A DNA stretch of 64,000 nucleotides from positions 248,001-312,000 of the IMG/VR virus record IMGVR_UViG_3300036770_003657; one strand, given 5' to 3'. The DNA comes from a virus. This document shows positions 8,074 to 63,761 of the stretch, one piece after another (the stretch's first letter is position 1; each line of letters begins with the position of its first letter). The position numbers were made by a program, and so were the translations under genes. The notes below the pieces were generated by a model, which saw only the letters and a program-made list of their open reading frames with translations, was not told the DNA's origin and did not search any database.

Positions 8074-8112
8074 AATAGATATATACTACTATATCCATTC
8101 AAGGAGATTAAG

Positions 8113-10191: not shown

Positions 10192-10192
10192 T

Positions 10193-11140
10193 TTATTGTC
10201 CTATATAAAATTTAATTACTTCATCTAACCCTTGGTTAAATTGAATAGTAGGCTTCCAACCTAAATTAACTAGTTTTGAATTATCAATAGCATATCTAAG
10301 ATCGTGTCCTAATCTATCTTTAACAAAGGTAATATTAGTTTCATATTTTTTCTCTTGCGGTACGAACAGATCTAATCTGTTACATATGTGTGTAACCATA
10401 TCAATATTAGCAACTTCACACATGGTGCCTATATTGTAAGTTTCACCAGGAGTGCCTTTTGAAATTAAGTAGTCAATAGCAGCACAATGATCATCTACAT
10501 GTATCCAATCTCTACGATTCATACCATCACCATATACGGGTATGGGTTGATTTAATAAAGCACGCTCTATGACCTTGGGAATAAGTTTTTCCTTGTGTTG
10601 GTAAGGACCATAATTATTGCTACAATTAGTTATTATGGTCATCAAACCATATGTTTCGTGATAACTACGCACCAAATGATCACTGGCTGCTTTGCTGGCA
10701 CTGTACGGACTATTTGGTTTGTAAGGATGATTCTCTGTAAAAGCAGGATCATCAAACCCCAAACTACCAAATACTTCATCTGTGCTTACATGAATGAACA
10801 GTGTATCTGGGCTGTGCTGTCTAACTGCTTCTAATAAATTAAAAGTTCCTATTACATTTGTATCAACAAATACTCTTGGTCCTTCAATACTGTTATCAAC
10901 ATGACTTTCAGCGGCAAAGTGTACAATAACTCTTGGTTGTAGTTTTACATAATTAACTACCTGTTCATAATCTCTTATGTCTGTTTTAAAGAACAAGTGT
11001 TTATGATTGCTGGGTAAATTACCTTTATTACCGGCGTAGGTAAGTGCATCCAAGTTGATGATATTTTCACCATATTTGTCAAGTACGAACCTAATAAAGT
11101 TGCTACCAATGAACCCTGCACCGCCAGTTACTAATATCAT
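10193..11140 (-). CDS. rmlB: dTDP-glucose 4,6-dehydratase (RmlB)
   Basis: 315-residue extended SDR with all RmlB hallmarks: GGAGFIGSNF at the N-terminus, NLDALTYAGN, the catalytic STDEVFG (Thr, Asp, Glu) and YSASKA (Tyr-xxx-Lys). It converts dTDP-glucose to dTDP-4-keto-6-deoxyglucose, the first committed step toward rhamnose and other deoxysugars. It is slightly shorter than bacterial RmlB (~350). The RmlD-like gene follows; no rmlA or rmlC is certain nearby, although a sugar nucleotidyltransferase lies at 34.7 kb. Confidence 0.92.
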   Translation of the reverse strand: MILVTGGAGFIGSNFIRFVLDKYGENIINLDALTYAGNKGNLPSNHKHLFFKTDIRDYEQVVNYVKLQPRVIVHFAAESHVDNSIEGPRVFVDTNVIGTFNLLEAVRQHSPDTLFIHVSTDEVFGSLGFDDPAFTENHPYKPNSPYSASKAASDHLVRSYHETYGLMTIITNCSNNYGPYQHKEKLIPKVIERALLNQPIPVYGDGMNRRDWIHVDDHCAAIDYLISKGTPGETYNIGTMCEVANIDMVTHICNRLDLFVPQEKKYETNITFVKDRLGHDLRYAIDNSKLVNLGWKPTIQFNQGLDEVIKFYIGQ

Positions 11141-47003: not shown

Positions 47004-47654
47004 ATGATCGAAGCCTATGTTTATCGAATTACAAACAACATCACTAATCAGTTTTATTTCGGTTACCGTTATAGAAATCAAACTTTAGAAATCGAACCAG
47101 AAAATGACCTTTGGCTAAATTATTTTACTTCGTCAAACAGAATAAAAAAAGATATAAAAATTTACGGCAAAGAATCTTTCACTGTTAGTATTATATACAG
47201 AAATATTGATTCTGTCAAGTGCTGGCAAAAAGAACAAATTGAAATTCAAAAGGAATGGAATAATCCTCTTTTATTAAATGGTAAGTATCATAATCCTGAT
47301 AACCCAGAAATAGAAATATTTCGTAGAGTAAATCTACTAACCGAAACCACCCGCCAAAAAATGTCAGCAGCAGGGAAAGGTAGACCCAAGACTGAAGAAC
47401 ATAAGAAAAAAATTGCGGCTGCCAACACAGGAAATGTAGGATCCGCACAAAAACGAGCTAAAATATCTGCGGCAAGAAAAGGAAAATTACCATCTAACAA
47501 AGGAATTTCTCCGACCAAATATCAATGTTTAAATTGTAAATCGTTAGTATCTAAAGCAAATTTGAATAGATGGCATGGTAATAATTGTAAATCAATTGAT
47601 CCTATAGGACATTTAAAAAGAACTTCGCAAGTTGCTTCCATTAACAAAAAATAA
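47004..47654 (+). CDS. GIY-YIG homing endonuclease (Seg/Mob-like)
   Basis: 216 residues, antisense to its neighbours. AYVYRITNNITNQFYFGYR is the GIY-YIG start (VYR...YFG). The C-terminal half has NUMOD3-type DNA-binding repeats (MSAAGKGRPKTEEHKKKI, ISAARKGKLPSNKG) and a possible Cys/His zinc element (CLNCKSLVS, WHGNNC). Such genes spread by cutting a homologous locus. Its ends coincide with a duplicated phosphoesterase start, marking the insertion site. Confidence 0.88.
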   Translation: MIEAYVYRITNNITNQFYFGYRYRNQTLEIEPENDLWLNYFTSSNRIKKDIKIYGKESFTVSIIYRNIDSVKCWQKEQIEIQKEWNNPLLLNGKYHNPDNPEIEIFRRVNLLTETTRQKMSAAGKGRPKTEEHKKKIAAANTGNVGSAQKRAKISAARKGKLPSNKGISPTKYQCLNCKSLVSKANLNRWHGNNCKSIDPIGHLKRTSQVASINKK

Positions 47655-48696: not shown

Positions 48697-50418
48697 TTAT
48701 CTCCTATACTGCTGATCCACCATTTCTTGGTGTAGTCTGTCACTGCCCAATTGACGCAGTGCTCTGGCATTATCAACTGTGCGTTGATTGCGATATATTT
48801 CTCGTGGTGCGTAAAATGCTACATCTTTTAAGGCTATGTTATATGCTTCAAAGCCTACTGGCGTACGAGCCATTTGTGCTATGCTAACACCACCAACAGC
48901 ATCATTGTCCTGTGCCTTTTGATTTACTGTAGGTCCACTAAATGTAGGCATACTAGCCATTTGTGGCTGTAGTGTAACTATATCATTTATGGGATTAGTC
49001 TTGTCAGTTAACATGTTACTAGGCAATGATGTAGTGGCTTCCTGTGCCTGTACATCCACTTTGGCCAACACTGGTTGTTCAATGACCTGTACATTTTCTA
49101 CACTGGTTGTAGGTTGTACTTGTACAGGTTGTGGTAGTGTATATAGCGTACTTGGTTGTACTAATGCTAGATCAACCTGCGGCTTAACTTGTTCCATTTG
49201 TGGTGGCTGTGGTATATCCACTTGTATCTGTGCTTGACTGGGTACGTCTGGAAGTTTTATTGTGGCAACTTGTACGCTAACAGGTTCTGGTTCTGCTTGT
49301 TGACTAGGCGGTGGGTTTGGCAATATTATGCTGGTAGTATCTACACTGGCCGTAGTCGATGTATTTGTACTAGTAGTTTGTACTGCTGATGTGGTTTGTA
49401 CCTGCTCCTGTGACTGTTTATTAGTTGTGCCAGTAGGTTGATCCATTTGCTGGTTATCTATACTAGTGGCTACTTCAACATTTTGACTTGTTGTTCGTAC
49501 TTGAGTTTTAGATTGTTGACTAGTTCTAGTTTGTTCTACTGCTGTAGATATTGCTTGGCTTGTAGTCTTTGATTCTGTGCTGATGTTTTCAGTGGTTTGT
49601 TCTGGGCCAGCCTGTGTTATTTTAACTTCATCACGTTGTTTTGCCTTAGCCACTGCCTGTGCTGTAGACTCAATCTTTTTAATATCAACGCTGACTGGTT
49701 GATTAATAGTGCTAGTAGATACAGGTGATTCTGCTATTACTTCTGCCTGCTTGGGTACAGCACTGACTTTAGATATAGCCTCCATAAATCCAGGACACTG
49801 TGGACTGACCAGTTGACTACTTAAACAAGGGTCACGTTGATAGTTTAGAGTAAAACTAACATTAGTAATTTCTGGACCATATGGTCCTTCAAATCCATTG
49901 TAGTCCTGACCTATAAAACCAAATCCAACTCTTGTAAGATTTTCTGTAGTATATCTTGAGGTTAGAGGACTATAACTATTGGCCAAGTTAAAGGTATACC
50001 AATCGTGCGTACTAGTATGAACAAAGTTGGCCTGCTCTATAAGGGTATTACCTTTGCCAACTATGTTAACATAACTTCTTAAGTAATCATATGCACCATC
50101 ATCCCAACCATTACCCACTTTGGCAGTATATTGAAAGTGCCAACCAGTGACCACTAAGCCTGTTCCACTATAGGGTAGTACATTGGCTACATTATGATAC
50201 TGTGATATATCCGTCATACCATAACTATAATTAATAGTACCACCTGGTCTCAAGTATGGAATGCCTGGGCTACAATTAGGATCTCCGGGTTGCCAACAGA
50301 CTAACTCGTTTACACGATATACATTGGTCCAACTACCATCATTCAAATTACCTGTAGTGCTAGTTTGAGCAAGTACAGGTATAAACAATGAAGCAATTAT
50401 AACTGCTAATCTTTTCAT
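48697..50418 (-). CDS. Secreted Gln/Thr/Pro-rich phage protein (573 aa)
   Basis: A signal peptide is clear (MKRLAVIIASLFIPVLAQTS, cleavage after VLA). Residues 20-205 form a Trp/Tyr-rich globular domain (VVTGWHFQYTAKVGNGWDDG). Then ~260 residues of low-complexity Gln/Thr/Val/Pro. The C-terminus (RTPVGFEAYNIALKDVAFYA, RALRQLGSDRLHQEMVDQQY) is a compact conserved tail. Export to the periplasm or beyond is unusual for phage and fits surface attachment. Coupled to the Asn-rich gene by ATGA. Confidence 0.7.
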   Translation of the reverse strand: MKRLAVIIASLFIPVLAQTSTTGNLNDGSWTNVYRVNELVCWQPGDPNCSPGIPYLRPGGTINYSYGMTDISQYHNVANVLPYSGTGLVVTGWHFQYTAKVGNGWDDGAYDYLRSYVNIVGKGNTLIEQANFVHTSTHDWYTFNLANSYSPLTSRYTTENLTRVGFGFIGQDYNGFEGPYGPEITNVSFTLNYQRDPCLSSQLVSPQCPGFMEAISKVSAVPKQAEVIAESPVSTSTINQPVSVDIKKIESTAQAVAKAKQRDEVKITQAGPEQTTENISTESKTTSQAISTAVEQTRTSQQSKTQVRTTSQNVEVATSIDNQQMDQPTGTTNKQSQEQVQTTSAVQTTSTNTSTTASVDTTSIILPNPPPSQQAEPEPVSVQVATIKLPDVPSQAQIQVDIPQPPQMEQVKPQVDLALVQPSTLYTLPQPVQVQPTTSVENVQVIEQPVLAKVDVQAQEATTSLPSNMLTDKTNPINDIVTLQPQMASMPTFSGPTVNQKAQDNDAVGGVSIAQMARTPVGFEAYNIALKDVAFYAPREIYRNQRTVDNARALRQLGSDRLHQEMVDQQYRR

Positions 50419-51824
50419 CTATCTGATCTAGCAACGTCTACAGGCTTAGGAACAAGGTGTGGGTTCTGTTCCCAAAACTCACGAGCCTTATCACCAATCA
50501 TTCCATTTACAGGACAAGGTGTGCCTGCTGCTATCATAGCATCAAACACTCTACGATCTTGACACATAGTGGCCACTGCTGCTACCTTCATACCCATATC
50601 ATATAAGGTTTTGCTTAACTTTAAGCGTTCGCAATTAGCATCACGTAGTGTGCTACCAAAACTTAGGCCAATGACCTGTGTTTGAGCAGCACCACTAACA
50701 CCTGTAATACATAGGTCAGTGCCCATACTCATCATACTTGGTGCTATGGCAGTTGGTGGTGGCTGTATGACCTTTTGTGTGATTTCACTACGATTTATGT
50801 TAGTATTAACATTGTCTGTCTTTACTGTTTGATCACTTACACTTTGACTAATGTTAGTGTTTACATTGACATTTTTATTGTCACTTACACTGGCACTGGT
50901 GTTAATATTACGATTAGTCATATCACCAGTCTGTATGTTATTATTGGTGCTCACACTATTGTTCTGATTAACATTAGTGTTAGTGCTGGTACTATTACTA
51001 TTATTGGTATTAACATTATTACTGGTGCTGACATTGTTGGCATTTACCGTACTAGTGTTTATGCTGCGGTTAGTCATATCACCATACTGAAAGTTTGTAT
51101 TGCTGCTGGTGCTATTGTTAGTGTTTACATTATTGCTGGTTGTAGTGTTAACATTATTATTGTTATAGTTCACTGTACCACTCATAATATTACGGTTAGT
51201 ATTGTCACTAGTCGTATTATTATTGTTATTGTATGTCATAGTACCAGTGTTTATATTTTGGTTAATATTATTGCTACTGGTAGTGTTTACATTGTTGTTA
51301 TTATAGGTAACACTACCACTCATAATATTACGGTTAGTATTGTCAGTGGCTGACGTATTTTGATTGATGTTGGTCAATGTTCCACTTTGTACATTGTTAT
51401 TGTTGTAGGTCACCGTACCACTGTTTACATTATTGTTGTTATTGGTGTAGGTCACACTACCACTCTGTATATTATTGTTAGTATTAGTGTTGGTACTAGT
51501 GCTGGTTGTAGTGTTTTGGTTAATGTTGGTGGCTGTTCCACTTTGTACATTATTGTTGGTGTAGGTCACACTGCCACTCATCACATTGTTATTAGTCACC
51601 GTACCACTTTGTATATTGTTATTAGTATTGGTACTAGTGGTGGTACTAGTGTTTGTATTGGTGTTAGTACTGGTGGTAGTTGAATTCACCGTGTTGGTGC
51701 TATTACTGGTACTGTTAGTATCAACCAAACTAGAACTGGTATATCCACCTTGATTGATCAATGTCTGTGCTTGTAGCCCAGAGAATGCCGCCCCGATAAG
51801 TGCTGCTAGTAGGGTTTTTTTCAT
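50415..51824 (-). CDS. Secreted Asn/Thr-rich repeat protein (469 aa)
   Basis: Signal peptide MKKTLLAALIGAAFSGLQAQ. Residues 30-340 are imperfect repeats of an Asn/Thr/Ser-rich unit with recurring IQSGTVT/NNNNVQSG/TNRNIMSGSVTYN motifs, a pattern like beta-helical or amyloid-type secreted proteins. A conserved C-terminal domain (CITGVSGAAQTQVIGLSFGS, ATMCQDRRVFDAMI) follows. It probably forms an extracellular or surface structure with its coupled partner. Ribosome site GGGGGAG. Confidence 0.7.
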   Translation of the reverse strand: MKKTLLAALIGAAFSGLQAQTLINQGGYTSSSLVDTNSTSNSTNTVNSTTTSTNTNTNTSTTTSTNTNNNIQSGTVTNNNVMSGSVTYTNNNVQSGTATNINQNTTTSTSTNTNTNNNIQSGSVTYTNNNNNVNSGTVTYNNNNVQSGTLTNINQNTSATDNTNRNIMSGSVTYNNNNVNTTSSNNINQNINTGTMTYNNNNNTTSDNTNRNIMSGTVNYNNNNVNTTTSNNVNTNNSTSSNTNFQYGDMTNRSINTSTVNANNVSTSNNVNTNNSNSTSTNTNVNQNNSVSTNNNIQTGDMTNRNINTSASVSDNKNVNVNTNISQSVSDQTVKTDNVNTNINRSEITQKVIQPPPTAIAPSMMSMGTDLCITGVSGAAQTQVIGLSFGSTLRDANCERLKLSKTLYDMGMKVAAVATMCQDRRVFDAMIAAGTPCPVNGMIGDKAREFWEQNPHLVPKPVDVARSDR

Positions 51825-52770: not shown

Positions 52771-53586
52771 ATGAACATGGGTTGGGGTGACGATTTAATA
52801 TGGTTAGGTGAAGCCAAGCATCAGTACTTAAAAGATGGCAAACCAAGGCGTCCTACTAGAGAATGGGTACCGCAGCCCATAAAAGAAGCATATTTGTATA
52901 GTCCATACGTTAATATGCGAGGCGGTTATGCTATGGAAGAAAGACATCTTGGAAAACGACCTTATCAAGGTAATATTGATTATGTACTAAAACCAGCTGA
53001 GATAACACTGAGCAAAGAAGAATTAGACTTAGGTGATATAGAATTAGCCAAAGGATCTTACTGGATAGTGTGCCCTGATAATAAACCTGAACAAGCTTAT
53101 GGCAATAACAAAATTTGGGGCGTAGGGTTCCCAAACTGGTTAAGGTTAGTTGAACTGATTAAGGCTAAATGGCCTAATCAAAGAATCTTAAGATTACGAC
53201 CCGATTACGCTAGAGAAAATATGCCATTAGTTGAACAATTGGATAGTCCTGGTTTTAGATATGCAGCAAGCATGGCTAGGCAAGCCAATTTAATTATTAC
53301 AACAGAAGGATTTTGGCATCATTTGGCCGCGGCTTGGAGTGTTCCAGCAGTGGTCATTTATGGCGGATCAACAAGTCCTCACCCATCAGTCAAAAGAAAT
53401 CATAGCGGCACTGGGTATCAAGGTCAATGCAATATTATTGATACAGAAGAACCTGAAACACCTTGTTATAATACTAAACCAAATTGCCCACATTGTAAAA
53501 AGGTATGGGCTAAAATAACTCCTGAAGTAGTTATGTCCAGATTAGAAGAATACGTTAATGAAAAAAATATTATTATTAGCTCCTAG
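52771..53586 (+). CDS. GT9-like glycosyltransferase
   Basis: 271 residues. NMGWGDDLIWLGEAK is a GT-B opening of the GT9 type, and IITTEGFWHHLAAAWSVPAVV plus VIYGGSTSPHPSV matches the ADP-heptose donor site. The ATG at 52771 fits that opening; a TTG at 52738 would add an unlikely N-terminus. Overlaps the next gene. Confidence 0.75.
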   Translation: MNMGWGDDLIWLGEAKHQYLKDGKPRRPTREWVPQPIKEAYLYSPYVNMRGGYAMEERHLGKRPYQGNIDYVLKPAEITLSKEELDLGDIELAKGSYWIVCPDNKPEQAYGNNKIWGVGFPNWLRLVELIKAKWPNQRILRLRPDYARENMPLVEQLDSPGFRYAASMARQANLIITTEGFWHHLAAAWSVPAVVIYGGSTSPHPSVKRNHSGTGYQGQCNIIDTEEPETPCYNTKPNCPHCKKVWAKITPEVVMSRLEEYVNEKNIIISS

Positions 53587-54532
53587 ATTGGATCTATACT
53601 TTAAACCTAATCCTAGTAACACTCTAATACCCAAAAAAGTAGGACCACCAAAACCCGGCAAAGAGTTATGGCAAGATTTTTTTAACAATTTAGAACAGGA
53701 ATATAAATCTAGACCTAACATAGAATTTTCTAAATTAGAACTTCCTTTATGGCAATTTAGTCCTAAACTATTAAAAAACTATGACTATGATATAGTATAT
53801 GTACCTCATAAAGAACGTCACAATTTTCCAATAAAAGATAAAGAAGTTTATTACTATATGCAAACAACTTTTCCATGGATATTCAGTGTAGATCCAAAGG
53901 GCTGGGCAGGAGGTGCTAGTGTATATCCTTATAGTAGTTTGTACACTGACAAAGTTGATAGTACAGTTTTTGATACCTTAAGAACTAGAGCTTTAGAAAA
54001 TAAAAGTAAATTTAATCAACCTAAATATACTGATATATCTTTACCTGAAAATTTTATATTGTTTACCTGTCAAATACCACATGATGAAACTATAAAGTAT
54101 CATAGTAAAGTAAGCGTAGGCAAAGCTTTAGTTTGGACCTGTGAAGCTACTAAAAAATTAGGAATACCTCTAGTGGTTAAAGGTCATCCTGTGAATAAAG
54201 ATAGTATGATTGGTCTAAAGAATAGTCTCGTTAATTATAAACACGTGACATACTTAGATAATGTTAGTATACATCAATTAATAAGTTTATCCAAATGTGT
54301 GGTTACAGTGAATTCTGGAACTGGAATGGAAGCATTGTTGCATAAAAAACCAGTAGTAACATTTGGACATGCTGAATACGATTGTGTAACTAACCATGCT
54401 ACCAAGGATAATATTACAGATGTATTGCTAAACCTAACTTTTAATGAAGATAATGTTATTAGATTTTTTGATGCTTGGTATAACTGGTGTTATGATATAA
54501 CTAATTATAAAACTTTTAGTAAATTAATTTAG
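53558..54532 (+). CDS. Capsule-polysaccharide-type glycosyltransferase (KpsC/KpsS-like)
   Basis: 324 residues. LVVKGHPVNKDS and VTVNSGTGMEALLHKKPVVT are the hallmark blocks of Kdo/capsule glycosyltransferases (VK.HP ... NS..G.EAL...KPV...G). It ends at the convergent desaturase gene with a 4-bp overlap. Probably extends a capsule- or LPS-like glycan. Confidence 0.82.
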   Translation: MKKILLLAPRLDLYFKPNPSNTLIPKKVGPPKPGKELWQDFFNNLEQEYKSRPNIEFSKLELPLWQFSPKLLKNYDYDIVYVPHKERHNFPIKDKEVYYYMQTTFPWIFSVDPKGWAGGASVYPYSSLYTDKVDSTVFDTLRTRALENKSKFNQPKYTDISLPENFILFTCQIPHDETIKYHSKVSVGKALVWTCEATKKLGIPLVVKGHPVNKDSMIGLKNSLVNYKHVTYLDNVSIHQLISLSKCVVTVNSGTGMEALLHKKPVVTFGHAEYDCVTNHATKDNITDVLLNLTFNEDNVIRFFDAWYNWCYDITNYKTFSKLI

Positions 54533-55299
54533 ATATCTTTTTTTCGAATTAATTTCACAAAAATTTGATAGGCGGGGTCAAACTCCCACCATTTTACACT
54601 ACCGTAGTCTGCTAAAGCAGGGTTAGCATGATGATTATTATGCCAACCTTGGCCCCAACAAAATATTCCAGTTATCCAATTATTTGAGCTATTGTCATTA
54701 GTTTCAAAGTTTCTGTATCCAAATCTAGTAGTATGTCCTAGTATATTTACAATATTGTCTTGATGAAATGCTAATAAACATCCTGGAATTAGTATGGCCA
54801 AAGCAAACATAGGAGAAATAATAAATCCTATTAGGATAAAAATCCAAAATATTTTTTTATAATGTTCATGTTGAAATGCGATAAATTTATCTTTTAATAA
54901 GTCTCTTGCATACATTAGGTTTACAGACTTGTTATCTAAATGATTATGCCATAATATGTATGAATGCAATAATCCATGTCTAGGACTATGTATGTCATTT
55001 TCGGTATCACTATACCTATGATGTATTCCTCTATGTACAGATACCCAAAAAAGTAAACTGCCTTGAAGGCTCAATGTTCCTAAAATTATAATCATTTTAG
55101 ATATGAAATTGTTAGTTTTAAAACTTTTATGACTGAACAATTTATGATAACCTGTAGCTACACCTAATCCGCCTACTAATGACCAAACTATAAAAATTCC
55201 TAAAAAGTAAATTGCTTCCCATTTAACAATAAAAAAAGATAGCATAAGTAATACGTGCATAGGAATTGTAATAAATTTAGTTTGATCAGATAGTTTCAT
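54529..55299 (-). CDS. Fatty acyl desaturase 1 (membrane, three His boxes)
   Basis: 256 residues with four hydrophobic stretches. The histidine boxes HKLFSH (52-57), HRGIHH (89-94) and HNNHH (220-224) bind the di-iron centre of Delta9-type acyl desaturases. It uses O2 to introduce a double bond into a fatty acyl chain. A close paralogue lies at 61.4-62.2 kb. It overlaps the oxygenase-like gene in a four-gene operon starting with the TctC-like protein. Confidence 0.92.
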   Translation of the reverse strand: MKLSDQTKFITIPMHVLLMLSFFIVKWEAIYFLGIFIVWSLVGGLGVATGYHKLFSHKSFKTNNFISKMIIILGTLSLQGSLLFWVSVHRGIHHRYSDTENDIHSPRHGLLHSYILWHNHLDNKSVNLMYARDLLKDKFIAFQHEHYKKIFWIFILIGFIISPMFALAILIPGCLLAFHQDNIVNILGHTTRFGYRNFETNDNSSNNWITGIFCWGQGWHNNHHANPALADYGSVKWWEFDPAYQIFVKLIRKKDI

Positions 55300-55858
55300 A
55301 ATATTCTTTACTTAAGTTATCCCAAGAGATTGCAGGAAAAAAAGTAGCAGTGATAGTGAGCCTTGAAGTTTTGGTATTAGTTAAATCTAAAGAGTGAGGT
55401 ACCGATGTTTTAATAATAGCCGATTTACAATCTAAAATTGTAGAAAATATAATTTTTCCTTCGGATTCATTATATCTATATGCTTTTGAATCAGAGTTAT
55501 AAACAGGGTCATGGTCCATATTATACCAGGAAATTATACCTGGTTCCCCTTCTGTATAAAAAGTTAACCGCCACTGATTGTAACTATTAGGATCACCATC
55601 TATATGTATAGGAACTATTGTTCCTGGAATTGCCGTTAGTGCTGCTAGCACACCTAACTTTGTGTTATATTTTTTAGCAAATGTTTTTAAATCATTAGCA
55701 AAATTAGTTCGTAAAATCTTTTTATTGCCAAAAAAACTCTGATAATCTAAAAATCTTTTGTTATCATGATTACGCATTTCAGATTTAATTATAGCAATAT
55801 CTTCTGTAGAGATTATTATATCGTCAAAAGGTAAACAATATTCTTTATGATATTTCAT
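55286..55858 (-). CDS. 2OG-Fe(II)-oxygenase-like protein 1
   Basis: 190 residues. PIHIDGDPNSYNQWRLTFY gives HxD (His85, Asp87), VPHSLDLTNTKTSRLTI gives the distal His155 and Arg166 that would bind 2-oxoglutarate. Fold-level match to aspartyl/prolyl hydroxylase-like enzymes; substrate unknown. A paralogue occurs at 63.2 kb in the second cassette. Confidence 0.7.
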   Translation of the reverse strand: MKYHKEYCLPFDDIIISTEDIAIIKSEMRNHDNKRFLDYQSFFGNKKILRTNFANDLKTFAKKYNTKLGVLAALTAIPGTIVPIHIDGDPNSYNQWRLTFYTEGEPGIISWYNMDHDPVYNSDSKAYRYNESEGKIIFSTILDCKSAIIKTSVPHSLDLTNTKTSRLTITATFFPAISWDNLSKEYYETI

Positions 55859-56393
55859 TTTTATAATGTATTCTTATAACAACATCATTGGTAAATATAT
55901 CCTGTCCTGCTATTTTTCTACTTAATGGATGCTTTATAGGTTGATTTTTATCATATTGATACAAAGTAAAACTTGAGTAAGTTTGAAGTTTTTTACTTAC
56001 ATTTCGTAATTTGATATTAGAAGATTTCATATAACTTTTTGGTTGTATATATGTAAATGTAGTTATACCAAATGATTCCCAATAATTTATTGCATAATCG
56101 TACAAAGCAGCTATTCCGTTAGATTCAGGTTTATAAATTTTATCTTTAGGTCTTGTAACAATTAATCTCATGACCCAAATAGGTAATTCATATAATTTAT
56201 ATGTAATCATATATGAATTAACCACATTATTAGGTTCATACAAAAAAATTACAATATTACTATTCAGTTTATTTATAAAGTTTTGAAAAGATATAAATTC
56301 AGTTTGAGAATCTTTACCAATTCTTTTATGAACAAACAGCAGATCATACAAAGTACGATAGTCTGTAGGATCTGCTAATCTTATTTCGCTCAT
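55845..56393 (-). CDS. GNAT-like acyltransferase 1
   Basis: 182 residues. It opens EIRLADPTDYRTLYDLL and has a GNAT-type middle (VNSYMITYKL, ELPIWVMRLIV, GIAALYDYAINYWESFG). The canonical R/QxxGxG/A loop is not clear. N-acyl amino acid synthases and phage GNAT-like proteins share this layout. Overlaps tctC-like gene by ATGA and the oxygenase gene by 14 bp. Confidence 0.55.
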   Translation of the reverse strand: MSEIRLADPTDYRTLYDLLFVHKRIGKDSQTEFISFQNFINKLNSNIVIFLYEPNNVVNSYMITYKLYELPIWVMRLIVTRPKDKIYKPESNGIAALYDYAINYWESFGITTFTYIQPKSYMKSSNIKLRNVSKKLQTYSSFTLYQYDKNQPIKHPLSRKIAGQDIFTNDVVIRIHYKNEIS

Positions 56394-57268
56394 TGTAACT
56401 TATACAACTGAATCTGCATTTCTAGTGATTCTTTTCCTAAAGGAGTTGACATCATTAATGTATGACGCCATTCTTTCTGAATATCTGAATTTGTTGAGTA
56501 AGAAGATACTATGTTCAACCAATGTTTCTCTATGTTTTTATCGATGTTAGGTGGTAAAGCTAAAGCAAACCCACCAAATTTGGTCCAATTTTTGTAGCGT
56601 TTGGGTAAACTAACAGCCTCATACCCATCAATAGCTGTATCATTATCATGAGCTAATAATATAGCCTTTTTAGAATCTATCATGGTTTTTCCAATACTCA
56701 TTGGAATCACTGAAACGTCTATATTGTCACCGCCTAAATCTTGTAACATTTGAGGTACTGATTTATAAGCAACTGGTTCTAAACTATAGTCTTTATTAAT
56801 TTTAGTATAAAATTCTTTAAAAAATCTAATTTGATCTGGAGCAGTGTATCCTAAAATAATTCTCTTATTATTTTTAATAGCGTTTTCTAGTTCTTCAAAA
56901 GTTTTTATCTTATTTGAAATTATTGACATAACTGGGTTTCGTATTAAAGAAACATTTGAAACTTTTTTATTTGTATTTTTATTTTCAAACTCAGCAAGTG
57001 TAGTCACAGTTCCTATATAGATAGTATAACCATCTGGTTCTGATTTAAAGAGTTCATTACCTGCGATTACTCCGTTTGCCCCTGGTTTGTATATGGGTAC
57101 CATTTTTACGTTTTGATTTAATAAAAATTTTTCTAAACTTCTAAAAGTTTGATCAACTCCACCTCCAGCTCCAAATGGCATAATAACATTGATTGGCTTC
57201 GAGGCCATGTCAAAAGCAAAAGTCATTTTAAAAAATAATAATAAAAAAAGGGATATTAAAGTTTTCAT
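56390..57268 (-). CDS. TctC/Bug-type periplasmic binding protein
   Basis: 292 residues, slightly shorter than Bug proteins (~320). Signal peptide MKTLISLFLLLFFKMTFA, then PINVIMPFGAGGGVDQTFRS and KPGANGVIAGNELFKSEPDGY, the two beta-strand-loop motifs that hold carboxylate ligands. In bacteria it feeds a tripartite tricarboxylate transporter or a sensor; no tctA/tctB is present. A phage copy could supply a ligand to a host system. Ribosome site AGGAG. Confidence 0.87.
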   Translation of the reverse strand: MKTLISLFLLLFFKMTFAFDMASKPINVIMPFGAGGGVDQTFRSLEKFLLNQNVKMVPIYKPGANGVIAGNELFKSEPDGYTIYIGTVTTLAEFENKNTNKKVSNVSLIRNPVMSIISNKIKTFEELENAIKNNKRIILGYTAPDQIRFFKEFYTKINKDYSLEPVAYKSVPQMLQDLGGDNIDVSVIPMSIGKTMIDSKKAILLAHDNDTAIDGYEAVSLPKRYKNWTKFGGFALALPPNIDKNIEKHWLNIVSSYSTNSDIQKEWRHTLMMSTPLGKESLEMQIQLYKLQ

Positions 57269-57304
57269 ATTTTCTCCTAAATATAATTCATGTGTATTTA
57301 ATGA

Positions 57305-57312
57305 TATAAATA
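57305..57312 (+). promoter_or_regulatory. Exact T4 late box TATAAATA
   Basis: TATAAATA on plus, 16 nt before the ATG at 57329, with GAGG between. It shares the divergent gap 57269-57328 with the tctC-like gene. Confidence 0.65.
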
Positions 57313-57328
57313 ATCACGAGGTTAAAAT

Positions 57329-58759
57329 ATGAATTTTATAAACGCTGATAATATTTTCACTGAATACAAAAAAACAGAAATTGAGTTTTATTATTATGGA
57401 GAGTTTGATACTTCTGTAGAATCTATAATCTATCTACTAGAAAATGATAAGTTTCCAACCAATTTAAAAGGAAATTTTGCTTTTTTTTATAAAGACCCCA
57501 ACAGAGTAGTTATTGCTGTTGATCATGCTCCTACAATAAATCTATTTTATACTGATAATGAAGTTAGTCACATTTTTGATGTACTTAAAAAACCTTCTAT
57601 GTCACCTAATAAAGAAATTGAAATGCAGTCTAGATTTTTTCACGGAGCAACATTCGGATCAGGTACTTCAATGTATGAAATTAATAGACTCAAGCAAGGA
57701 ACTTATTTTGAAAAAAATCTAAAAACAGGACAATGCTATATTGTTGAATATATTGATTTATATAGTCATACTATAGATGAAAGTATGACGTTATATGATT
57801 TTGGTGATATTTTAGAAAAAATAATTGATAAGCATACTAATTCTAAATTTAATTTACTATATAGTAGTGGAACTGATAGTAATTGTATATTAGGATATAT
57901 TAGAAAATTAAAAAAAATCAATCTGTGTAATTTAGTATCGTTATATACCAACGGTGCTCTTTACAATGAAAAAGATCAAATTGAAGAAATACTAAAGATT
58001 TATGGATATAAGACAACATTTTATAATATAGGTCAATTTGGAGGGAAAAGTTCTAAAGCTACTAATAGATATAATGATCCAAATGAAACTGTAATATATA
58101 AAAAGAATTATGAAAGAATGTTTTCAGGAAATTGGCATGATTCTACTATTTGGCAAAAGTTTGAAGCACTTCATGACACAGGAAATTTAGACAATATTAC
58201 TATTACAGGTGAGATAGGAGATGAGTTATTTGGTCCAGGTCCTACACTAAAAATGTTACGATATATTATTCAGAATCCTAAATTTACTTCAAGAGAAGTT
58301 GCTATATTATTTTTAACCATTCATATTTTCAGAAACAGAGAAACCTTTGTTAAAGAATATGATCAATGGCTTGTAAATGTAAATGCTGATGAGTCTCGAT
58401 TAGCTGCATGGGAAAACACAATAGAATATTTTATAAAATTATGGGACCGTTTAAACAAAGATGATATTCTAAATGCAGGAAAGCTAATGCAATATCATTT
58501 AATGACACCTTGGCGTTTACTTCCTTACTCACAATTTTCTAATGTAAAGTTTTTGCATCCCTTTCAAGATTATAGGTTATATTTTAATATTTGGAAAATT
58601 CCAGGGACTGATATGTTTAGTACTACTGGAATAGCACGTAAAGGTAGTTATGAAATTATTAAAGACTACATAACATCTATACCGTGGCAATATAAAAAGA
58701 TTGGACCTACATATTTGGCAGTAGAGGAACGACTTAATAAATTTAGAGATATTTCATGA
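57329..58759 (+). CDS. Asparagine-synthetase-like ATPase without glutaminase Cys
   Basis: 476 residues. The N-terminal third has the Ntn-like layout but starts MNFI, so Cys2 is missing and it cannot use glutamine directly, as in beta-lactam synthetases. The PP-loop is LLYSSGTDSNCIL (SSGTDS at 179-184) and GEIGDELFG (294-302) is the second nucleotide block. Expected to adenylate a carboxylate and form an amide or ring. Head of the plus-strand half of cassette A. Confidence 0.82.
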   Translation: MNFINADNIFTEYKKTEIEFYYYGEFDTSVESIIYLLENDKFPTNLKGNFAFFYKDPNRVVIAVDHAPTINLFYTDNEVSHIFDVLKKPSMSPNKEIEMQSRFFHGATFGSGTSMYEINRLKQGTYFEKNLKTGQCYIVEYIDLYSHTIDESMTLYDFGDILEKIIDKHTNSKFNLLYSSGTDSNCILGYIRKLKKINLCNLVSLYTNGALYNEKDQIEEILKIYGYKTTFYNIGQFGGKSSKATNRYNDPNETVIYKKNYERMFSGNWHDSTIWQKFEALHDTGNLDNITITGEIGDELFGPGPTLKMLRYIIQNPKFTSREVAILFLTIHIFRNRETFVKEYDQWLVNVNADESRLAAWENTIEYFIKLWDRLNKDDILNAGKLMQYHLMTPWRLLPYSQFSNVKFLHPFQDYRLYFNIWKIPGTDMFSTTGIARKGSYEIIKDYITSIPWQYKKIGPTYLAVEERLNKFRDIS

Positions 58760-59217
58760 TAGAAAAAAAACATATTGATGCCATAAGAATAGAAAGTGTT
58801 GTGCTATTAGATACTGATAAAGCAGGATCTTTGTATATGGAAAGATTATTTCCATTATGGGTAGATCCAATTGTTTTTACCATAGAAGGAAAATATCCTT
58901 TAAATAATGAATTAAGGGATAGAACTATAACTGAGTTATCTCAAAATAAAAATATTAGATGTATTTTATTTGGGGCTCAGTCTGAAAAGTATAAAACAGC
59001 TACGGATAGAAAATTGTCTATGGCTCCGTTTTTTATACAAGACTTAACATCTTATTTTTGGCAGAAGCCAATGTTTGAATTTTATGATCAGCGTATAATA
59101 GAATTAATGAAAGAATTTTGTGAAAAAGTTGATATTGATAGAATAGGATCTTATGAATCAATCCTGAATTATAACAAACGATCAACGGTTAAATGGTATC
59201 ATAGTCTCATCATTTGA
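58756..59217 (+). CDS. Hypothetical protein (153 aa)
   Basis: Not recognised. Alpha/beta pattern (VVLLDTDKAGSLYMERLF, IRCILFGAQSEKYKT, MFEFYDQRIIELMKEFC). It overlaps the ATPase gene by 4 bp, so it is probably co-translated and part of the same pathway. Confidence 0.55.
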   Translation: MIEKKHIDAIRIESVVLLDTDKAGSLYMERLFPLWVDPIVFTIEGKYPLNNELRDRTITELSQNKNIRCILFGAQSEKYKTATDRKLSMAPFFIQDLTSYFWQKPMFEFYDQRIIELMKEFCEKVDIDRIGSYESILNYNKRSTVKWYHSLII

Positions 59218-59415
59218 AATATCAATTAATTCTCCAATTTTTGATAAAATTATGAAAGATAACTTCATTGAAAATTTATTATCTATAATACAACTATAAC
59301 TAGTAGATCCAAAATCATCCCCAAATACTATTCCATTATTGACAATAATGTTTTGTTTTTTACACATTTCCAAAAATTCAGGAAGCACAGATATAGGTAT
59401 TTTGATTTTATACAT
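59182..59415 (-). CDS. Small hypothetical protein (77 aa)
   Basis: Not recognised. Beta-rich with a central YSCIIDNKFSMKLSF; no membrane segment. Its 3' end overlaps the convergent gene by 36 bp; it follows the SDR by 1 nt, so it belongs to the cassette-B operon. Confidence 0.45.
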   Translation of the reverse strand: MYKIKIPISVLPEFLEMCKKQNIIVNNGIVFGDDFGSTSYSCIIDNKFSMKLSFIILSKIGELIDISNDETMIPFNR

Positions 59416-59416
59416 T

Positions 59417-60136
59417 CTATTCTGTATAATATCTATTGCCTAACGGACTAATAACAAGCTCATTTATGACAACGTTATTAGGAGTTGATGCGATATAAAA
59501 AATAGAATCTGCTACTTGTGATGCTTTTAACATCTTATTTTTTTCTTTAGACGTGAGAGGTTCTTCTCTATCCATTAACATAGGAGTGTTTACTTCTGCT
59601 GGAAGTATCACTGAAGATTTTATCCCATTAAGTTGTTCTTCTTGATTTATGCTAGTATTTAGAGCTAATATACCTTGTTTAGCAGCAGAATAAGCAGCAC
59701 CTAAAACTTTAAGATTCCATCTAGCAGTCCATGAACTAATGTGTATAAATTGACCATATCTCTGTCGACGCATTATAGGTAAAACAGAAGTAGTTATGTA
59801 AAATAAACTCTTTAAATTTGTATCAATAAGTTCATCTATACCACTTGGTGTTAGCGCAGAAAGAGACCTATGTTCAATATTGGTACCTGCATTGTTAACC
59901 ACAATATCTATTCTTCCATACTTTTTAACGATTCTATCTACTATAGCATGACATATATCAATATTTGTCAAATCCCCAGCTTCTAAATGTAAATTATCAT
60001 GGGATTCTAATTTGTTCAGCTTTTTTTTATTCTTTGATGTGGCAATAACATAAGCTCCATTGGATAAAAATTTTGTTACTGCTGATAACCCAATGCCCGA
60101 TGATGCACCAGTTATCCAAATAATTTTATTTTCCAT
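59417..60136 (-). CDS. Classical short-chain dehydrogenase/reductase
   Basis: 239 residues, standard SDR. TGASSGIGLSA (cofactor), VVNNAGTN, SSWTARW with catalytic Ser and YSAAKQG (Tyr-xxx-Lys). It would reduce or oxidise a hydroxyl/keto group. It shares a base with the upstream gene (TAATG). Confidence 0.9.
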   Translation of the reverse strand: MENKIIWITGASSGIGLSAVTKFLSNGAYVIATSKNKKKLNKLESHDNLHLEAGDLTNIDICHAIVDRIVKKYGRIDIVVNNAGTNIEHRSLSALTPSGIDELIDTNLKSLFYITTSVLPIMRRQRYGQFIHISSWTARWNLKVLGAAYSAAKQGILALNTSINQEEQLNGIKSSVILPAEVNTPMLMDREEPLTSKEKNKMLKASQVADSIFYIASTPNNVVINELVISPLGNRYYTE

Positions 60137-60435
60137 TATTCTAGATCTTCTGTTTGAGTTTCGTCAGCTATAATTCCATTTAATTGGTTATGCTCATCTC
60201 TCAATCTAAAATATTCAATCATAATTGGATCTTGTCTATGCTCTTCCCACAGCTCTTTATTTTGCCAATATGCTTCATGATAAAATAGTAGTCCGTCTGC
60301 ACTAACTTGATTATTTAAAAAAATGCATTTTCCTGATTCTAAATAGGTTGTTCTAAAATAGCTTCCATCTAATACTTGAAAATGCCATAATACTTCAGTA
60401 TTTGGTCTAGTAAAAGTTCTTGTAACTCTAAACAT
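60136..60435 (-). CDS. Possible ABM-like ferredoxin-fold protein (99 aa)
   Basis: Weak recognition. FRVTRTFTRPNTEVLWHF then YFRTTYLESGKC and LLFYHEAYWQNKELWEEHRQ show the beta-alpha-beta pattern of antibiotic-biosynthesis-monooxygenase-like proteins. No catalytic residues can be assigned. Ribosome site AAAGGA; coupled to the SDR. Confidence 0.5.
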   Translation of the reverse strand: MFRVTRTFTRPNTEVLWHFQVLDGSYFRTTYLESGKCIFLNNQVSADGLLFYHEAYWQNKELWEEHRQDPIMIEYFRLRDEHNQLNGIIADETQTEDLE

Positions 60436-60445
60436 GTCTTTTCCT

Positions 60446-61408
60446 TTAAGGTGTTAGGAGATCTAATAAGTTTTGGTACGTTGTAGCTTTGTAAATTAGA
60501 TTATCTCTACCATTATATAACCTATTTATTTCTAAAAAAATTTGATAGCAATAATCTTTGGGGTCTTTATTACGCAAAAATTCTACATTTTCCAATCCAG
60601 TGTACTTAGGTCTATTTTCTAATTCAGGCCAATGGCGGAAGGTCATGAATCTTTTTATTTGCTCACAATTAATATTTCCAAATTTAGCATCTCTAGTAAA
60701 AAAAGAATCTGCATATTTGATCCAATGAGCCACATCTTTATCTAAAATATAACTAAGCATTAATTCCGGAGTAAACATAAACAATCTCCTTACAGAATGT
60801 ATACCTAATTCTCTTGCCTTAAAATGAGTATGCATAGTTCCAATATCATCTATTAAAATAAGACCATCTTGTTCTATGTTTACGTCTCTGTATCGTGATA
60901 GTGAAAATCTGCCATCACCATATAGATTTAAACTATCTGGAAAAAATTTAATTAGTTCACTATGTAGTAGCATTCCTAGTCGATAAGTTTTATATTTGTG
61001 TGCTTCTTCTAATAATGTATTCTTTACATAATGTTCTAGATCTATTCTATTAACCTTATAAGGAATATCGTGTTTTTTTATAAATTTGTAAATATAACGA
61101 TTTTCATGCTCATTACAGTTCTTATTATTTTTATAATCTATTTCTAAAATAGATATTGTATATGGTAAATCTAATTCATTTAAAGTAAGACATACTACTT
61201 CACTATCTATTCCTCCAGAAGCATGAACTACTATAGATTTTTTAGATAAATCTGTAGCCAATAATATTGCTTTTTTAAATTCCTCCTTAAAATTACAAGG
61301 TACATACTTCGCTTTATCGTAATGAATCCAATATTTTTCTATCGGATTATCCACATTAAAAGAGTCTTTACCCCATCCATATTTAAGGTGAGTATTATAT
61401 ATTATCAT
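60446..61408 (-). CDS. Asparagine-synthase-like PP-loop ATPase, glutaminase absent
   Basis: 320 residues. SIVVHASGGIDSEVVC carries the PP-loop SGGIDS (64-69). The N-terminal glutaminase domain is missing altogether. Expected to activate a carboxylate (or sulfur/nitrogen acceptor) with ATP. It overlaps the second desaturase by 14 bp in cassette B. Confidence 0.8.
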   Translation of the reverse strand: MIIYNTHLKYGWGKDSFNVDNPIEKYWIHYDKAKYVPCNFKEEFKKAILLATDLSKKSIVVHASGGIDSEVVCLTLNELDLPYTISILEIDYKNNKNCNEHENRYIYKFIKKHDIPYKVNRIDLEHYVKNTLLEEAHKYKTYRLGMLLHSELIKFFPDSLNLYGDGRFSLSRYRDVNIEQDGLILIDDIGTMHTHFKARELGIHSVRRLFMFTPELMLSYILDKDVAHWIKYADSFFTRDAKFGNINCEQIKRFMTFRHWPELENRPKYTGLENVEFLRNKDPKDYCYQIFLEINRLYNGRDNLIYKATTYQNLLDLLTP

Positions 61409-62189
61409 GTTTTCTAATTAATTTAATTAACCAATAAGTAGGATCAATTTCCCACTTACATACATGCCCAAAATTAGGATTTCTACTATCGCCGTGATGA
61501 TTATTGTGCCATGCTTCACCTAAAATAAATGGAAATAACCAAGGACAATTGGTACTATTGTCTTTAGTTTCATAATTTCTATACCCTAGACTTTTATAAT
61601 GTGTGAAACTTGTTGTAAATAAAAATGTATGTAAAGCAATAAAAGATGGAAATCCTAATAGGTATAACCAAATATTAAAATCTATTAGTGCTAGTCCAAT
61701 ATGTGATATCCAAAGTATTTTTATATAATGTTTATGAGCGAATACTATATCTTTATCTTTAATTAAGTCAGGTAATGATTTTAGGCTAATATTGTGCTTT
61801 TTAAACATCCACCCCATATAGCTATGCCAAAAACCATCTTTAGGGCTGTGAGGGTCTCCTTCTTTATCTGCGCACCTATGGTGATATCCTCGATGAACAC
61901 CTGCCCAGAAAATAGGGCTACCCTGTCCGCCTAGAGTGCCTAAGTAGATTAGTATGCGTTTAACAACTATATTTGTTTCGAAGCTTTTGTGGCTTATAAA
62001 TCTATGATAGCCTATACTTATTCCTAACAAGGTTATACACACATACCCAATTATTGAATATAGGAACCACCATTCTGTAGTATTATTGGTGCCTATATTG
62101 AAAATAGCCAAAGCTCCTATTACTTGCATAGGAACTATACTAGCCCATAAATTTTTGAGTTTAAAAAAATTTATAATTTTCTTTTCCAT
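61395..62189 (-). CDS. Fatty acyl desaturase 2
   Basis: 264 residues. Histidine boxes HRFISH (62-67), HRGYHH (99-104) and WHNNHHGD near residue 240 are in place with four hydrophobic regions. A clear paralogue of the enzyme at 54.5 kb (shared GYH..F/ISHKSFxTN, LGTL..QGS..FW..VHRG). Acts on an acyl chain in the host membrane or on a carrier. Confidence 0.92.
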   Translation of the reverse strand: MEKKIINFFKLKNLWASIVPMQVIGALAIFNIGTNNTTEWWFLYSIIGYVCITLLGISIGYHRFISHKSFETNIVVKRILIYLGTLGGQGSPIFWAGVHRGYHHRCADKEGDPHSPKDGFWHSYMGWMFKKHNISLKSLPDLIKDKDIVFAHKHYIKILWISHIGLALIDFNIWLYLLGFPSFIALHTFLFTTSFTHYKSLGYRNYETKDNSTNCPWLFPFILGEAWHNNHHGDSRNPNFGHVCKWEIDPTYWLIKLIRKHDNI

Positions 62190-62710
62190 TTTTTTAATAA
62201 ACTATACTTCCCTTGATAAATTATTTTTTGCCAACAGGTATTATCTGTTTCGTTAGGGCAGGTCAAGTAAAAATACTTATCAGTTTTAAAATCAAGTCCA
62301 TAAAAATTTAAATTCGATGATAACCACTCGTCCCAATTAAGTGTTTGTCTACTAATAAATGAAATTTTACTGTCAGTATTTTCTTTAAGCCACGTTAATT
62401 GACTTTTTGCAGTTTCGGCTATAGATTGGCTCAGCCTTCTTGAAAACCTTATCTTCTCGTTGGGCTTCCAGGTTCTATTTAAGATTCTATAAAAGTCAGT
62501 TGGCCAACAATCTCTATAAGATATACTTGAACATATTATTGGTGTTTCATTATCAAAGCAGATGGTTAGTGCTAGACAATATTTTAGGAAATCTTTATCG
62601 TAATTTTTCCATAACCTGTGAGTTCTGTCATTAAATTGTATGATTCGTAATTCGTCAAACAAACTATCTAAGTAATTGTCTGCACCTGGGGACCATGTAA
62701 CAGTATTCAT
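62171..62710 (-). CDS. GNAT-like acyltransferase 2
   Basis: 179 residues from the ATG that shares a base with the previous stop (TAATG). ICSSISYRDCWPTDFYRILN and KIRFSRRLSQSIAETAKSQL resemble GNAT strand-helix pairs but the acetyl-CoA loop is not canonical. It corresponds in position to GNAT-like acyltransferase 1 of cassette A. Overlaps the desaturase gene by 19 bp. Confidence 0.5.
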   Translation of the reverse strand: MNTVTWSPGADNYLDSLFDELRIIQFNDRTHRLWKNYDKDFLKYCLALTICFDNETPIICSSISYRDCWPTDFYRILNRTWKPNEKIRFSRRLSQSIAETAKSQLTWLKENTDSKISFISRQTLNWDEWLSSNLNFYGLDFKTDKYFYLTCPNETDNTCWQKIIYQGKYSLLKKWKRKL

Positions 62711-63150
62711 TACGCTATTTTCATCCAATAAAATTTTTCTTTTCTTTTATCAAGCCATTCTAAATACCCATGCGGTTCTATTGATGATGGATCATCTACT
62801 GATTCATGTATACTATACAATAGTTTTTTATACCCTTGTTTCCTTAAATAGTCACAAAAAGACGCAATTAATGATCTTGTTAAAGATCCATGCCTATACT
62901 CTTTGATAACATATATCCATGTTGCTAATGGGATAGTATTTTGAAAAATATAATCCCATGTTATCATACCGCATATATTAGAATCTATCTCTGCAATTAA
63001 AATTCTTTTACCTTCTATGGCTTCTCTTAACCATATATCTATATCATGTGTATAGATTAGTGTGTTACATTTGCTTAATTCTTTAATAATAAAAGATTCG
63101 GATTGAGTAGGAAACCTTATTATAAGATCAGCTATGCTATTATTGTTCAT
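62710..63150 (-). CDS. GNAT acetyltransferase-like protein
   Basis: 146 residues, usual GNAT size. ILIAEIDSNICGMITWDYIF, PLATWIYVIKEYRHGSLTRS and LIASFCDYLRKQGYKKLLY are the strand 4, motif A (R-x-G-x-x-x-R loop) and strand 6 regions. Acyl-CoA-dependent transfer to an amine is expected; substrate unknown. Confidence 0.72.
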   Translation of the reverse strand: MNNNSIADLIIRFPTQSESFIIKELSKCNTLIYTHDIDIWLREAIEGKRILIAEIDSNICGMITWDYIFQNTIPLATWIYVIKEYRHGSLTRSLIASFCDYLRKQGYKKLLYSIHESVDDPSSIEPHGYLEWLDKRKEKFYWMKIA

Positions 63151-63176
63151 AAATTTTCAATAAGAAAATATTAATT

Positions 63177-63761
63177 TTAAAAATGTTTGATATCGTCTAA
63201 TGACCATATGGATCCTGTAATAGAAATACGGGAATGTTTTAAATGATCTACATCATGCATAACTAATCCATTTAATAATACCCAAGTACATTTTTCGAAT
63301 TTTATAGAGCCAATATTGACCAAAGAATTATAATCATTAGCAACGTCACCATATTCTCTCAATATAGGTTTATCTTCTTCTTGATAAAAATTAGTAAATA
63401 TACCTTCACCACCTAAATCTAAAATGTAAAGAATAGTCCATCGTCTAGGTTCCTTATCACAATGTGCTAGTAATTTAGTTTTTTCAATTACAGGCTCAAT
63501 TTTTTGAATTCCTACTTGGTTAAAATTACATGGAATATTTTCTTCTATCCAAGTGCTAAGAGGAGAAAGTAAAGGCCACCTTTTATATAATGAATTTTTA
63601 TACTTAATATCTTTATAATGTCCAACTCTTAATCCTTTACCCTCATATTGCAGTTCATCATTATTATAGTTAGAAATATCTAACAATAAATTATCAGGTA
63701 TTTTTGGCCAATCTTTTAATATAGCCCATAAAATTACGTCGTTATATCGAATAGTGTTCAT
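63177..63761 (-). CDS. 2OG-Fe(II)-oxygenase-like protein 2
   Basis: 194 residues. LLAHCDKEPRRWTILYIL gives HxD (His100, Asp102), then VMHDVDHLKHSRISITGSI gives a distal His (169 or 173) and Arg178. First gene of the cassette-B operon, with ribosome site AAGGA, just downstream of tRNA-Gly. Probable hydroxylase or cyclase of unknown substrate. Confidence 0.72.
   Translation of the reverse strand: MNTIRYNDVILWAILKDWPKIPDNLLLDISNYNNDELQYEGKGLRVGHYKDIKYKNSLYKRWPLLSPLSTWIEENIPCNFNQVGIQKIEPVIEKTKLLAHCDKEPRRWTILYILDLGGEGIFTNFYQEEDKPILREYGDVANDYNSLVNIGSIKFEKCTWVLLNGLVMHDVDHLKHSRISITGSIWSLDDIKHF

Follow-up and report, generated by a model that had tools for sequence, protein, structure and literature searches.

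The window analysed here is a stretch of 64,000 nucleotides, bases 248001-312000 of the 399,796-base virus record IMGVR_UViG_3300036770_003657 (G000), and coordinates are window positions unless the record or another locus is named. Between positions 54529 and 63761 it carries two gene cassettes, which on balance are probably two forms of a mobile biosynthetic phage module for making or tailoring a fatty-acyl small molecule, most likely an acyl amide. The gene set goes far beyond coincidence: the order PP-loop ATPase, GNAT acyltransferase, membrane-bound desaturase recurs in dozens of uncultured phages. In these relatives the pathway is best read as dependent on an acyl carrier protein (ACP). 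The core genes of the two cassettes, which include 2-oxoglutarate (2OG) oxygenases, are listed below.

54529..55299, minus strand: membrane-bound fatty-acid desaturase of cassette 1 (Pfam PF00487, 70.5 bits; boxes HKLFSH, HRGIHH and HNNHH)
55286..55858, minus strand: 2OG-Fe(II) Asp/Asn-hydroxylase-like oxygenase of cassette 1 (HID...H...R; iterative hidden Markov model family; Beta-hydroxylase profile match)
55845..56393, minus strand: GN1, predicted GNAT-fold acyltransferase (AlphaFold2 pLDDT 90.7; Foldseek matches to GNATs, E 4e-9; GNAT-structure profile match, 7.5e-6)
57329..58759, plus strand: long AsnB-like PP-loop ATPase (SSGTDS) with a remnant glutaminase-like N-terminal domain lacking Cys (GATase_7, E 2.7e-4)
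60446..61408, minus strand: short PP-loop ATPase (SGGIDS) of cassette 2, without glutaminase domain (Pfam ATP_bind_3/QueC)
61395..62189, minus strand: membrane-bound fatty-acid desaturase of cassette 2 (Pfam PF00487, 59.7 bits; GN2-associated clade)
62171..62728, minus strand: GN2, putative acyltransferase, GNAT-like but not proven (family with 20 viral members; weak profile match)
62710..63150, minus strand: GNAT acetyltransferase-family protein of cassette 2 (Pfam PF00583, 25.0 bits against a cut-off of 20.7)
63177..63761, minus strand: 2OG-Fe(II) Asp/Asn-hydroxylase-like oxygenase of cassette 2 (HCD...H...R)

Cassette 1 consists of a minus-strand operon, in which a TctC-like gene, GN1, the oxygenase and the desaturase follow one another with overlaps of 4-14 bp, and of the long ATPase, which lies on the plus strand and is divergent from the other genes. 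Cassette 2 is a single minus-strand run of oxygenase, GNAT, GN2, desaturase and ATPase, overlapping by 14-19 bp apart from a short gap after the oxygenase. All open reading frames (ORFs) placed here by an earlier, sequence-only reading of this DNA were confirmed; the TctC-like gene was absent from its list. The proposal that few-base overlaps cause each set to be translated together agrees with the minus-strand overlaps of 4-19 bp but does not extend to the cassette 1 ATPase on the opposite strand.

Conserved gene order and selection in viral relatives

When viral contigs were scanned with the desaturase alignment, relatives were encoded in at least 582 stretches; 80 loci were retained from these, and homologues of the cassette proteins recur in the retained set. 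To counter the bias of a desaturase bait, separate scans started from the ATPase and from GN1, two independent baits, and duplicates and contig edges were removed; ORF calling was mechanical, and neighbour counts are therefore approximate. In 55 of the 56 ATPase-anchored viral loci GN1 directly followed the ATPase, a desaturase lay on the same strand no more than 3 kb away in 55/56, and a 2OG oxygenase was present within 5 kb in 40/56. From the GN1 side, the ATPase immediately preceded GN1 in 43 of 45 loci, and a desaturase was found within 3 kb in all 45. Homologues of the ATPases appeared only with profile alignments, and single window ATPases used as queries returned no close relatives. The ATPase-GNAT-desaturase order is fixed in these phages, and conserved synteny, one of the checks that the sequence-only reading had named for itself, was borne out.

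Purifying selection acts strongly on the genes for the ATPase, the GNAT and the desaturase. The median ratio of nonsynonymous to synonymous substitution rates (dN/dS) in pairs of close homologues was 0.083 for the ATPase, 0.072 for GN1 and 0.064 for the desaturase; that of the oxygenase was 0.185, based on six pairs only.

Linkage to acyl carrier protein and ketoacyl synthase

Immediately upstream of the ATPase lies a gene of 71-82 amino acids (aa) that forms a cluster in 36 loci; it encodes an ACP, which scored over the Pfam cut-off and has a conserved DSL motif. The ACP was found at most 1.5 kb upstream in 26 of 62 distinct ATPase-GN1 operons. Holo-ACP synthase (AcpS) genes occur in six distinct forms among the relatives; AcpS and ACP together adjoin the GN2-desaturase pair in loci L034, L042, L043, L044 and L051, and a ketoacyl synthase (PF00109/PF02801) abuts a second ACP in L034 and L044. 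A ketoacyl synthase is followed by five tandem desaturases in L090 (4485-9584), and tandem desaturases stand beside GN2 in L066 (four, 7980-10908) and L058 (three, 7950-10154). The ACP linkage of the module in relatives is new here, and with the linked AcpS and ketoacyl synthase it strengthens the earlier suggestion that a small-molecule or lipid-tailoring cluster is plausible.

The tandem arrays of differing desaturases in L090, L066 and L058 recall polyyne gene clusters. An AMP-binding enzyme (PF00501) was matched in only two of the 17 viral records searched, G003 and G701. The match in the former (G003:C1:221869-222711) lies about 20 kb from the cassette of locus L013, which is among the closest relatives of the cassette 1 desaturase.

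Sequence motifs and predicted folds

Both window desaturases exceed the FA_desaturase Pfam cut-off of 29.7 bits and retain the His residues of the three boxes as well as an extra His; these His residues are 0.99-1.00 conserved in 124 viral homologues. The window 2OG proteins gave no Pfam match of their own. Their HxD...H...R residues are 0.93-1.00 conserved in 119 homologues, and the family profile matches PDB entries named Beta-hydroxylase (best E 3e-4) and is weakly Asp_Arg_Hydrox-like. The Pfam family Asp_Arg_Hydrox includes LpxO and OlsC. Both window ATPases contain the PP-loop [SG][SG]GxDS, and across 76 homologues the conservation of its residues is 0.93-1.00. The desaturases and 2OG-oxygenase-like proteins were thus recognised correctly in the sequence-only reading, and the conservation of PP-loop, HxD and His-box residues within each family, on which it had also staked its case, was observed.

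No ATPase ORF starts with Met-Cys, and the short form lacks the whole N-terminal glutaminase domain; the GATase_7 match of the long form is weak and starts after the Cys position. Compared with asparagine synthetase B, the PP-loop SGGxDS is present and an N-terminal glutaminase with a Cys nucleophile is absent, and six of 39 ATPase family members match Pfam Asn_synthase. The AlphaFold2 model of the short ATPase (pLDDT 83, pTM 0.88) matched LarE, beta-lactam synthetase, AsnB and carbapenam synthetase with similar Foldseek E-values and low TM-scores; LarE and NAD synthetase fitted its fold about as well as beta-lactam synthetase and AsnB, and an uncharacterised protein from an uncultured phage was matched with a TM-score of 0.81. 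QueC, TtuA, MnmA, NAD synthetase and LarE are among the profile and fold matches of the ATPases. Judged by its modelled fold, the short form is best described as an AsnB-like PP-loop ATPase; it stands close to AsnB, beta-lactam synthetase and LarE but is no proven AsnB. It is distantly homologous, as a family, to the long form (hhalign probability 98.9). Of the asparagine-synthetase-like ATPase described earlier as having lost its glutaminase or the Cys, the PP-loop and the missing Met-Cys were upheld, and the AsnB identity of the short form was not proven.

GN1 is a GNAT according to its predicted fold. GN2 gave a weak hhalign match to a 182-aa GNAT-like family and no meaningful PDB profile match; the 182-aa family, upstream in 85 loci, matches one GNAT structure at E 7e-4. 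Profile comparison detected no relationship between GN1 and GN2. The label of GNAT-like acyltransferase accordingly holds for GN1 (fold) and for the protein at 62710-63150 (Pfam), and for GN2 there is a weak profile match only.

Two lineages of the module

In the desaturase tree, the cassette 1 enzyme forms a clade with those of L012 and L013 (support 100), where the genes run from the oxygenase through GN1 and the desaturase to the long ATPase. The cassette 2 enzyme groups with L034, L042, L044 and L051 in the GN2-associated clade (support 98-99); L043 is nearly identical to L042 and is not a row in the tree. The closest relatives of cassette 2 are among those that carry an ACP. Because the desaturases fall into separate clades and GN1 and GN2 are not detectably related, the cassettes are two variants brought together, and a recent duplication of one cassette was ruled out. 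The sequence-only description of two related cassettes, taken as a duplication, therefore fails, as the two desaturase clades have different partners.

Genomic setting and neighbouring genes

Proteins near the cassettes have matches to DNA ligase, endonuclease, tail and virion proteins of phages, and the setting is therefore a large tailed phage. The GC content of the cassette island is about 0.28-0.33 versus 0.36-0.37 in the backbone, and the low-GC island continues beyond the window end. Record positions 1-228000 were covered by whole-record family searches only. Further genes in or beside the cassettes are as follows.

56390..57268, minus strand: TctC-like periplasmic solute-binding protein (Pfam PF03401, 27.2 bits against a cut-off of 27; signal-peptide-like start by eye)
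58756..59217, plus strand: 153-aa protein (4-bp overlap with the long ATPase)
59417..60136, minus strand: short-chain dehydrogenase/reductase, downstream of cassette 2 (Pfam PF00106, 136.6 bits)
60136..60435, minus strand: P99, small protein family (RPN motif near the start; recurs in 17 desaturase loci)

The TctC-like gene is the first of the cassette 1 minus-strand operon, between GN1 and the long ATPase; loci L021, L029 and L039 are examples of the several relatives in which a TctC-like gene directly adjoins a long ATPase. An iterative search of the desaturase-anchored viral loci found no relative of the 153-aa protein.

A Capsule_synth-like gene (53558-54532) lies directly beside cassette 1, which a weak GT9-like gene also adjoins. 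A second capsule-synthesis-like copy, 71% identical, was located at record positions 314085-315053, so that the copies flank the cassettes on both sides. Past the window, the island at record positions 312426-322732 (L007) encodes four further 2OG-like proteins; inspection by eye adds a nitroreductase-like protein (318496-319107) and methyltransferase-like, CxxCxxCC and GNAT-like proteins. Upstream of the island is a GIY-YIG/NUMOD3 homing-endonuclease-like gene (47004-47654). Two large low-complexity proteins with signal-peptide-like starts and no Pfam match are encoded at 48697-51824. The same phage carries a third, divergent desaturase at record positions 380556-381257 (L010), near which a 5-aminolevulinate synthase-like gene was noted by eye at 382589-383785; AlaS and a desaturase have been reported together on a phage scaffold (PMC11480375). 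Genes resembling those for heme oxygenase, ClpS, Hsp20, DnaK and Fe-S assembly were seen by eye at record positions 340360-351046 (L008).

Distribution in bacteria and phage collections

A chromosomal counterpart surfaced in the bacterial desaturase scan in Duganella sacchari, where a short ATPase, a GN1 homologue (E 1.5e-10), a desaturase, a GNAT, a 210-aa protein, a second, long ATPase and a cupin stand in a row; the ATPase scan of genome contigs gave no bacterial relative. One further genome among 295 sampled from the same family had two such ATPases, a cupin, a weak ATP-grasp match and a PhyH oxygenase, and a phylum sample of 399 genomes gave no additional match. With so few counterparts in these samples, the module is rare in sampled bacteria and not an ordinary host pathway. 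Large RHS-like repeat proteins, identified by eye, adjoin the counterparts in both genomes (L224, 12674-16621; L233, 1-4001).

Neither the core ATPase nor the GNAT had a match among 50,697 phage records when these were searched with the window ATPases and GN1. Desaturases in that collection were matched only in Pelagibacter phage Mosig and in an Acinetobacter record with bacterial-looking genes, and its ketoacyl synthase matches, which were not checked individually, look largely bacterial (e.g. annotated fab genes). Achromobacter phage Motura, a weak fold match, was rejected after neither the desaturase family nor the long-ATPase profile found a match in it. The literature searched yielded no description of the module; a prior mention of the neighbourhood in Roitman et al. 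2018, which is cited in PMC7300359, is possible.

Proposed pathway and alternative explanations

The reaction steps, their order, the product and the role in infection are what we infer, beside the observed synteny, motifs, selection and linkage to ACP, AcpS and ketoacyl synthase. A fatty acyl chain would be held as a thioester on ACP, which is phage-encoded in many relatives and in this phage would presumably be supplied by the host. The membrane desaturase would oxidise the chain, the GNAT would move it, or a second acyl group, onto an amine, for instance an amino acid, the PP-loop ATPase would activate a carboxylate as acyl-adenylate and couple it to a nitrogen nucleophile, and the 2OG oxygenase would hydroxylate the product. 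Several results weigh against such an ACP-linked acyl amide pathway. Searches of this phage record, which is possibly incomplete, turned up no recognised ACP, AcpS or AMP-binding enzyme, so that either the host would provide the carrier or the step would not apply here; 36 of the 62 operons were without a recognised ACP within 1.5 kb upstream; and in Foldseek comparisons GN1 resembles ordinary acetyl-CoA GNATs, not acyl-ACP enzymes of the LuxI/FeeM type. Tentatively, and with more doubt than for the acyl amide module itself, the cassettes may belong to a transferable, virus-adapted, ACP-linked module of a kind not described before, found in uncultured phages including some jumbo phages and making a dedicated acyl natural product during infection. 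Its members might be a PP-loop amide synthetase, a GNAT, a desaturase and a 2OG hydroxylase, joined in some cases by a ketoacyl synthase and a holo-ACP synthase, a composition that we regard as equally tentative.

Tailoring of host membrane lipids is an unlikely but serious alternative, in which the desaturase, an LpxO/OlsC-like hydroxylase and the GNAT would remodel membrane lipids or aminolipids in the style of ornithine lipids or lipid A. We consider it similarly unlikely that the purpose is fluidity or the blocking of other phages, with a product that remains in the membrane. The three-box membrane desaturase and the weak Asp_Arg_Hydrox likeness of the 2OG family suit this explanation, and virus-encoded desaturases have been proposed to act on membrane lipids (PMC7300359), but it leaves unexplained the PP-loop ATPase that accompanies the desaturase in 55/56 loci, the ACP, AcpS and the ketoacyl synthase. 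That acyl or amide groups are placed on host lipopolysaccharide or capsule sugars together with capsule-type and GT9-like glycosyltransferases is improbable. The Capsule_synth-like and weak GT9-like genes adjoining cassette 1, and the duplication of the former, speak for this surface-glycan decoration; however, an iterative search found no homologue of either in the desaturase-anchored viral loci, so both lie outside the conserved unit, and membrane desaturases are not usual sugar modifiers. A modification of RNA, a cofactor or a protein, with the PP-loop enzyme acting like QueC, LarE or TilS, would account for the matches to QueC, TtuA, MnmA, NAD synthetase and LarE, yet it is very improbable in view of the persistent membrane desaturase partner, the ACP linkage and the six of 39 ATPases that match Asn_synthase.

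Unrelated auxiliary genes may also have been co-located by chance in a low-GC hypervariable island, as its base composition and the numerous, variable 2OG paralogues might suggest. For the ATPase-GNAT-desaturase core this is refuted by the order fixed from two independent baits and by the bacterial counterpart, and for the TctC-like protein, P99, the short-chain dehydrogenase/reductase and the 153-aa protein it is possible; as an explanation of the whole it has hardly any probability. The parallel to beta-lactam (carbapenem or clavam) pathways drawn in the sequence-only reading was not borne out, and such a pathway is extremely improbable. In its favour, the best fold matches of the short ATPase include beta-lactam synthetase and carbapenam synthetase, and this enzyme lacks the glutaminase Cys and has a 2OG oxygenase nearby. 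No crotonase-family gene (CarB type, PF00378) was present in the 17 viral records, this phage's included, in which clavam-specific enzymes were not searched for; the 2OG enzymes look Asp_Arg_Hydrox-like, LarE matches the ATPase equally well, and desaturase and ACP have no place in these pathways.

Comparison with known systems

The JamABC alkyne cassette and the polyyne clusters (caryoynencin, cepacin, protegencin; PMC8406139) resemble the acyl amide module in having membrane desaturases beside an ACP, and some phages (L058, L066, L090) share their several tandem desaturases. An ACP next to the desaturase occurs in relatives and not in this phage record, and the fatty acyl-AMP ligase has no counterpart in 15 of the 17 viral records, this phage included; the phage module has a PP-loop ATPase, a GNAT and a 2OG oxygenase instead. 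N-acyl amino acid synthase clusters (FeeM/NasY; PMC8762209, PMC12479983) transfer the acyl group of an acyl-ACP to an amino acid and have oxidative tailoring genes nearby, to which the nitroreductase-like gene seen by eye in this island may be likened. GN1 appears to differ from these synthases in its ordinary GNAT-like fold; just one of 39 members of its family touches the Autoind_synth model, and no FeeM entry occurs among its PDB sequence matches. With beta-lactam synthetase and carbapenam synthetase (1mbz, 1q15) the phage enzymes appear, from sequence, to share an AsnB-type PP-loop synthetase without glutaminase activity, whereas the short ATPase lacks the entire N-terminal domain and the carbapenem pathway's crotonase partner has no counterpart in the 17 viral records.

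Virus-encoded fatty acid desaturases (PMC7300359) belong to the same family, with conserved His boxes, and were read there as membrane-fluidity genes, whereas in the present module the desaturase is one of several enzymes. Lone phage ACPs occur, e.g. in an Erythrobacter phage (PMC5463345), as do phage-carried biosynthetic clusters, as far as Dragos et al. 2021 is represented by its citation in PMC10452541; in contrast, a linked module of ACP, PP-loop ATPase, GNAT and desaturase was not found in the literature searched. The island of Pelagibacter phage Mosig EXVC030M (MT647606) has a 2OG oxygenase beside a desaturase, a GNAT and other enzymes near tail-fibre genes, but no homologue of the PP-loop ATPase or GN1 family in the locus examined.

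Implications

The fixed partnership of the desaturase with the ATPase, the GNAT, the oxygenase and often an ACP points to a multi-step pathway, not to membrane fluidity, and to one kept by selection in phages that have not been cultured. A dedicated acyl product, if there is one, might serve as a signal, an inhibitor or a superinfection block. If phages make acyl small molecules, signalling, competition and self-protection by phage metabolites would become directly testable, and phage genomes would be a source of unusual amide-forming and oxidative enzymes.

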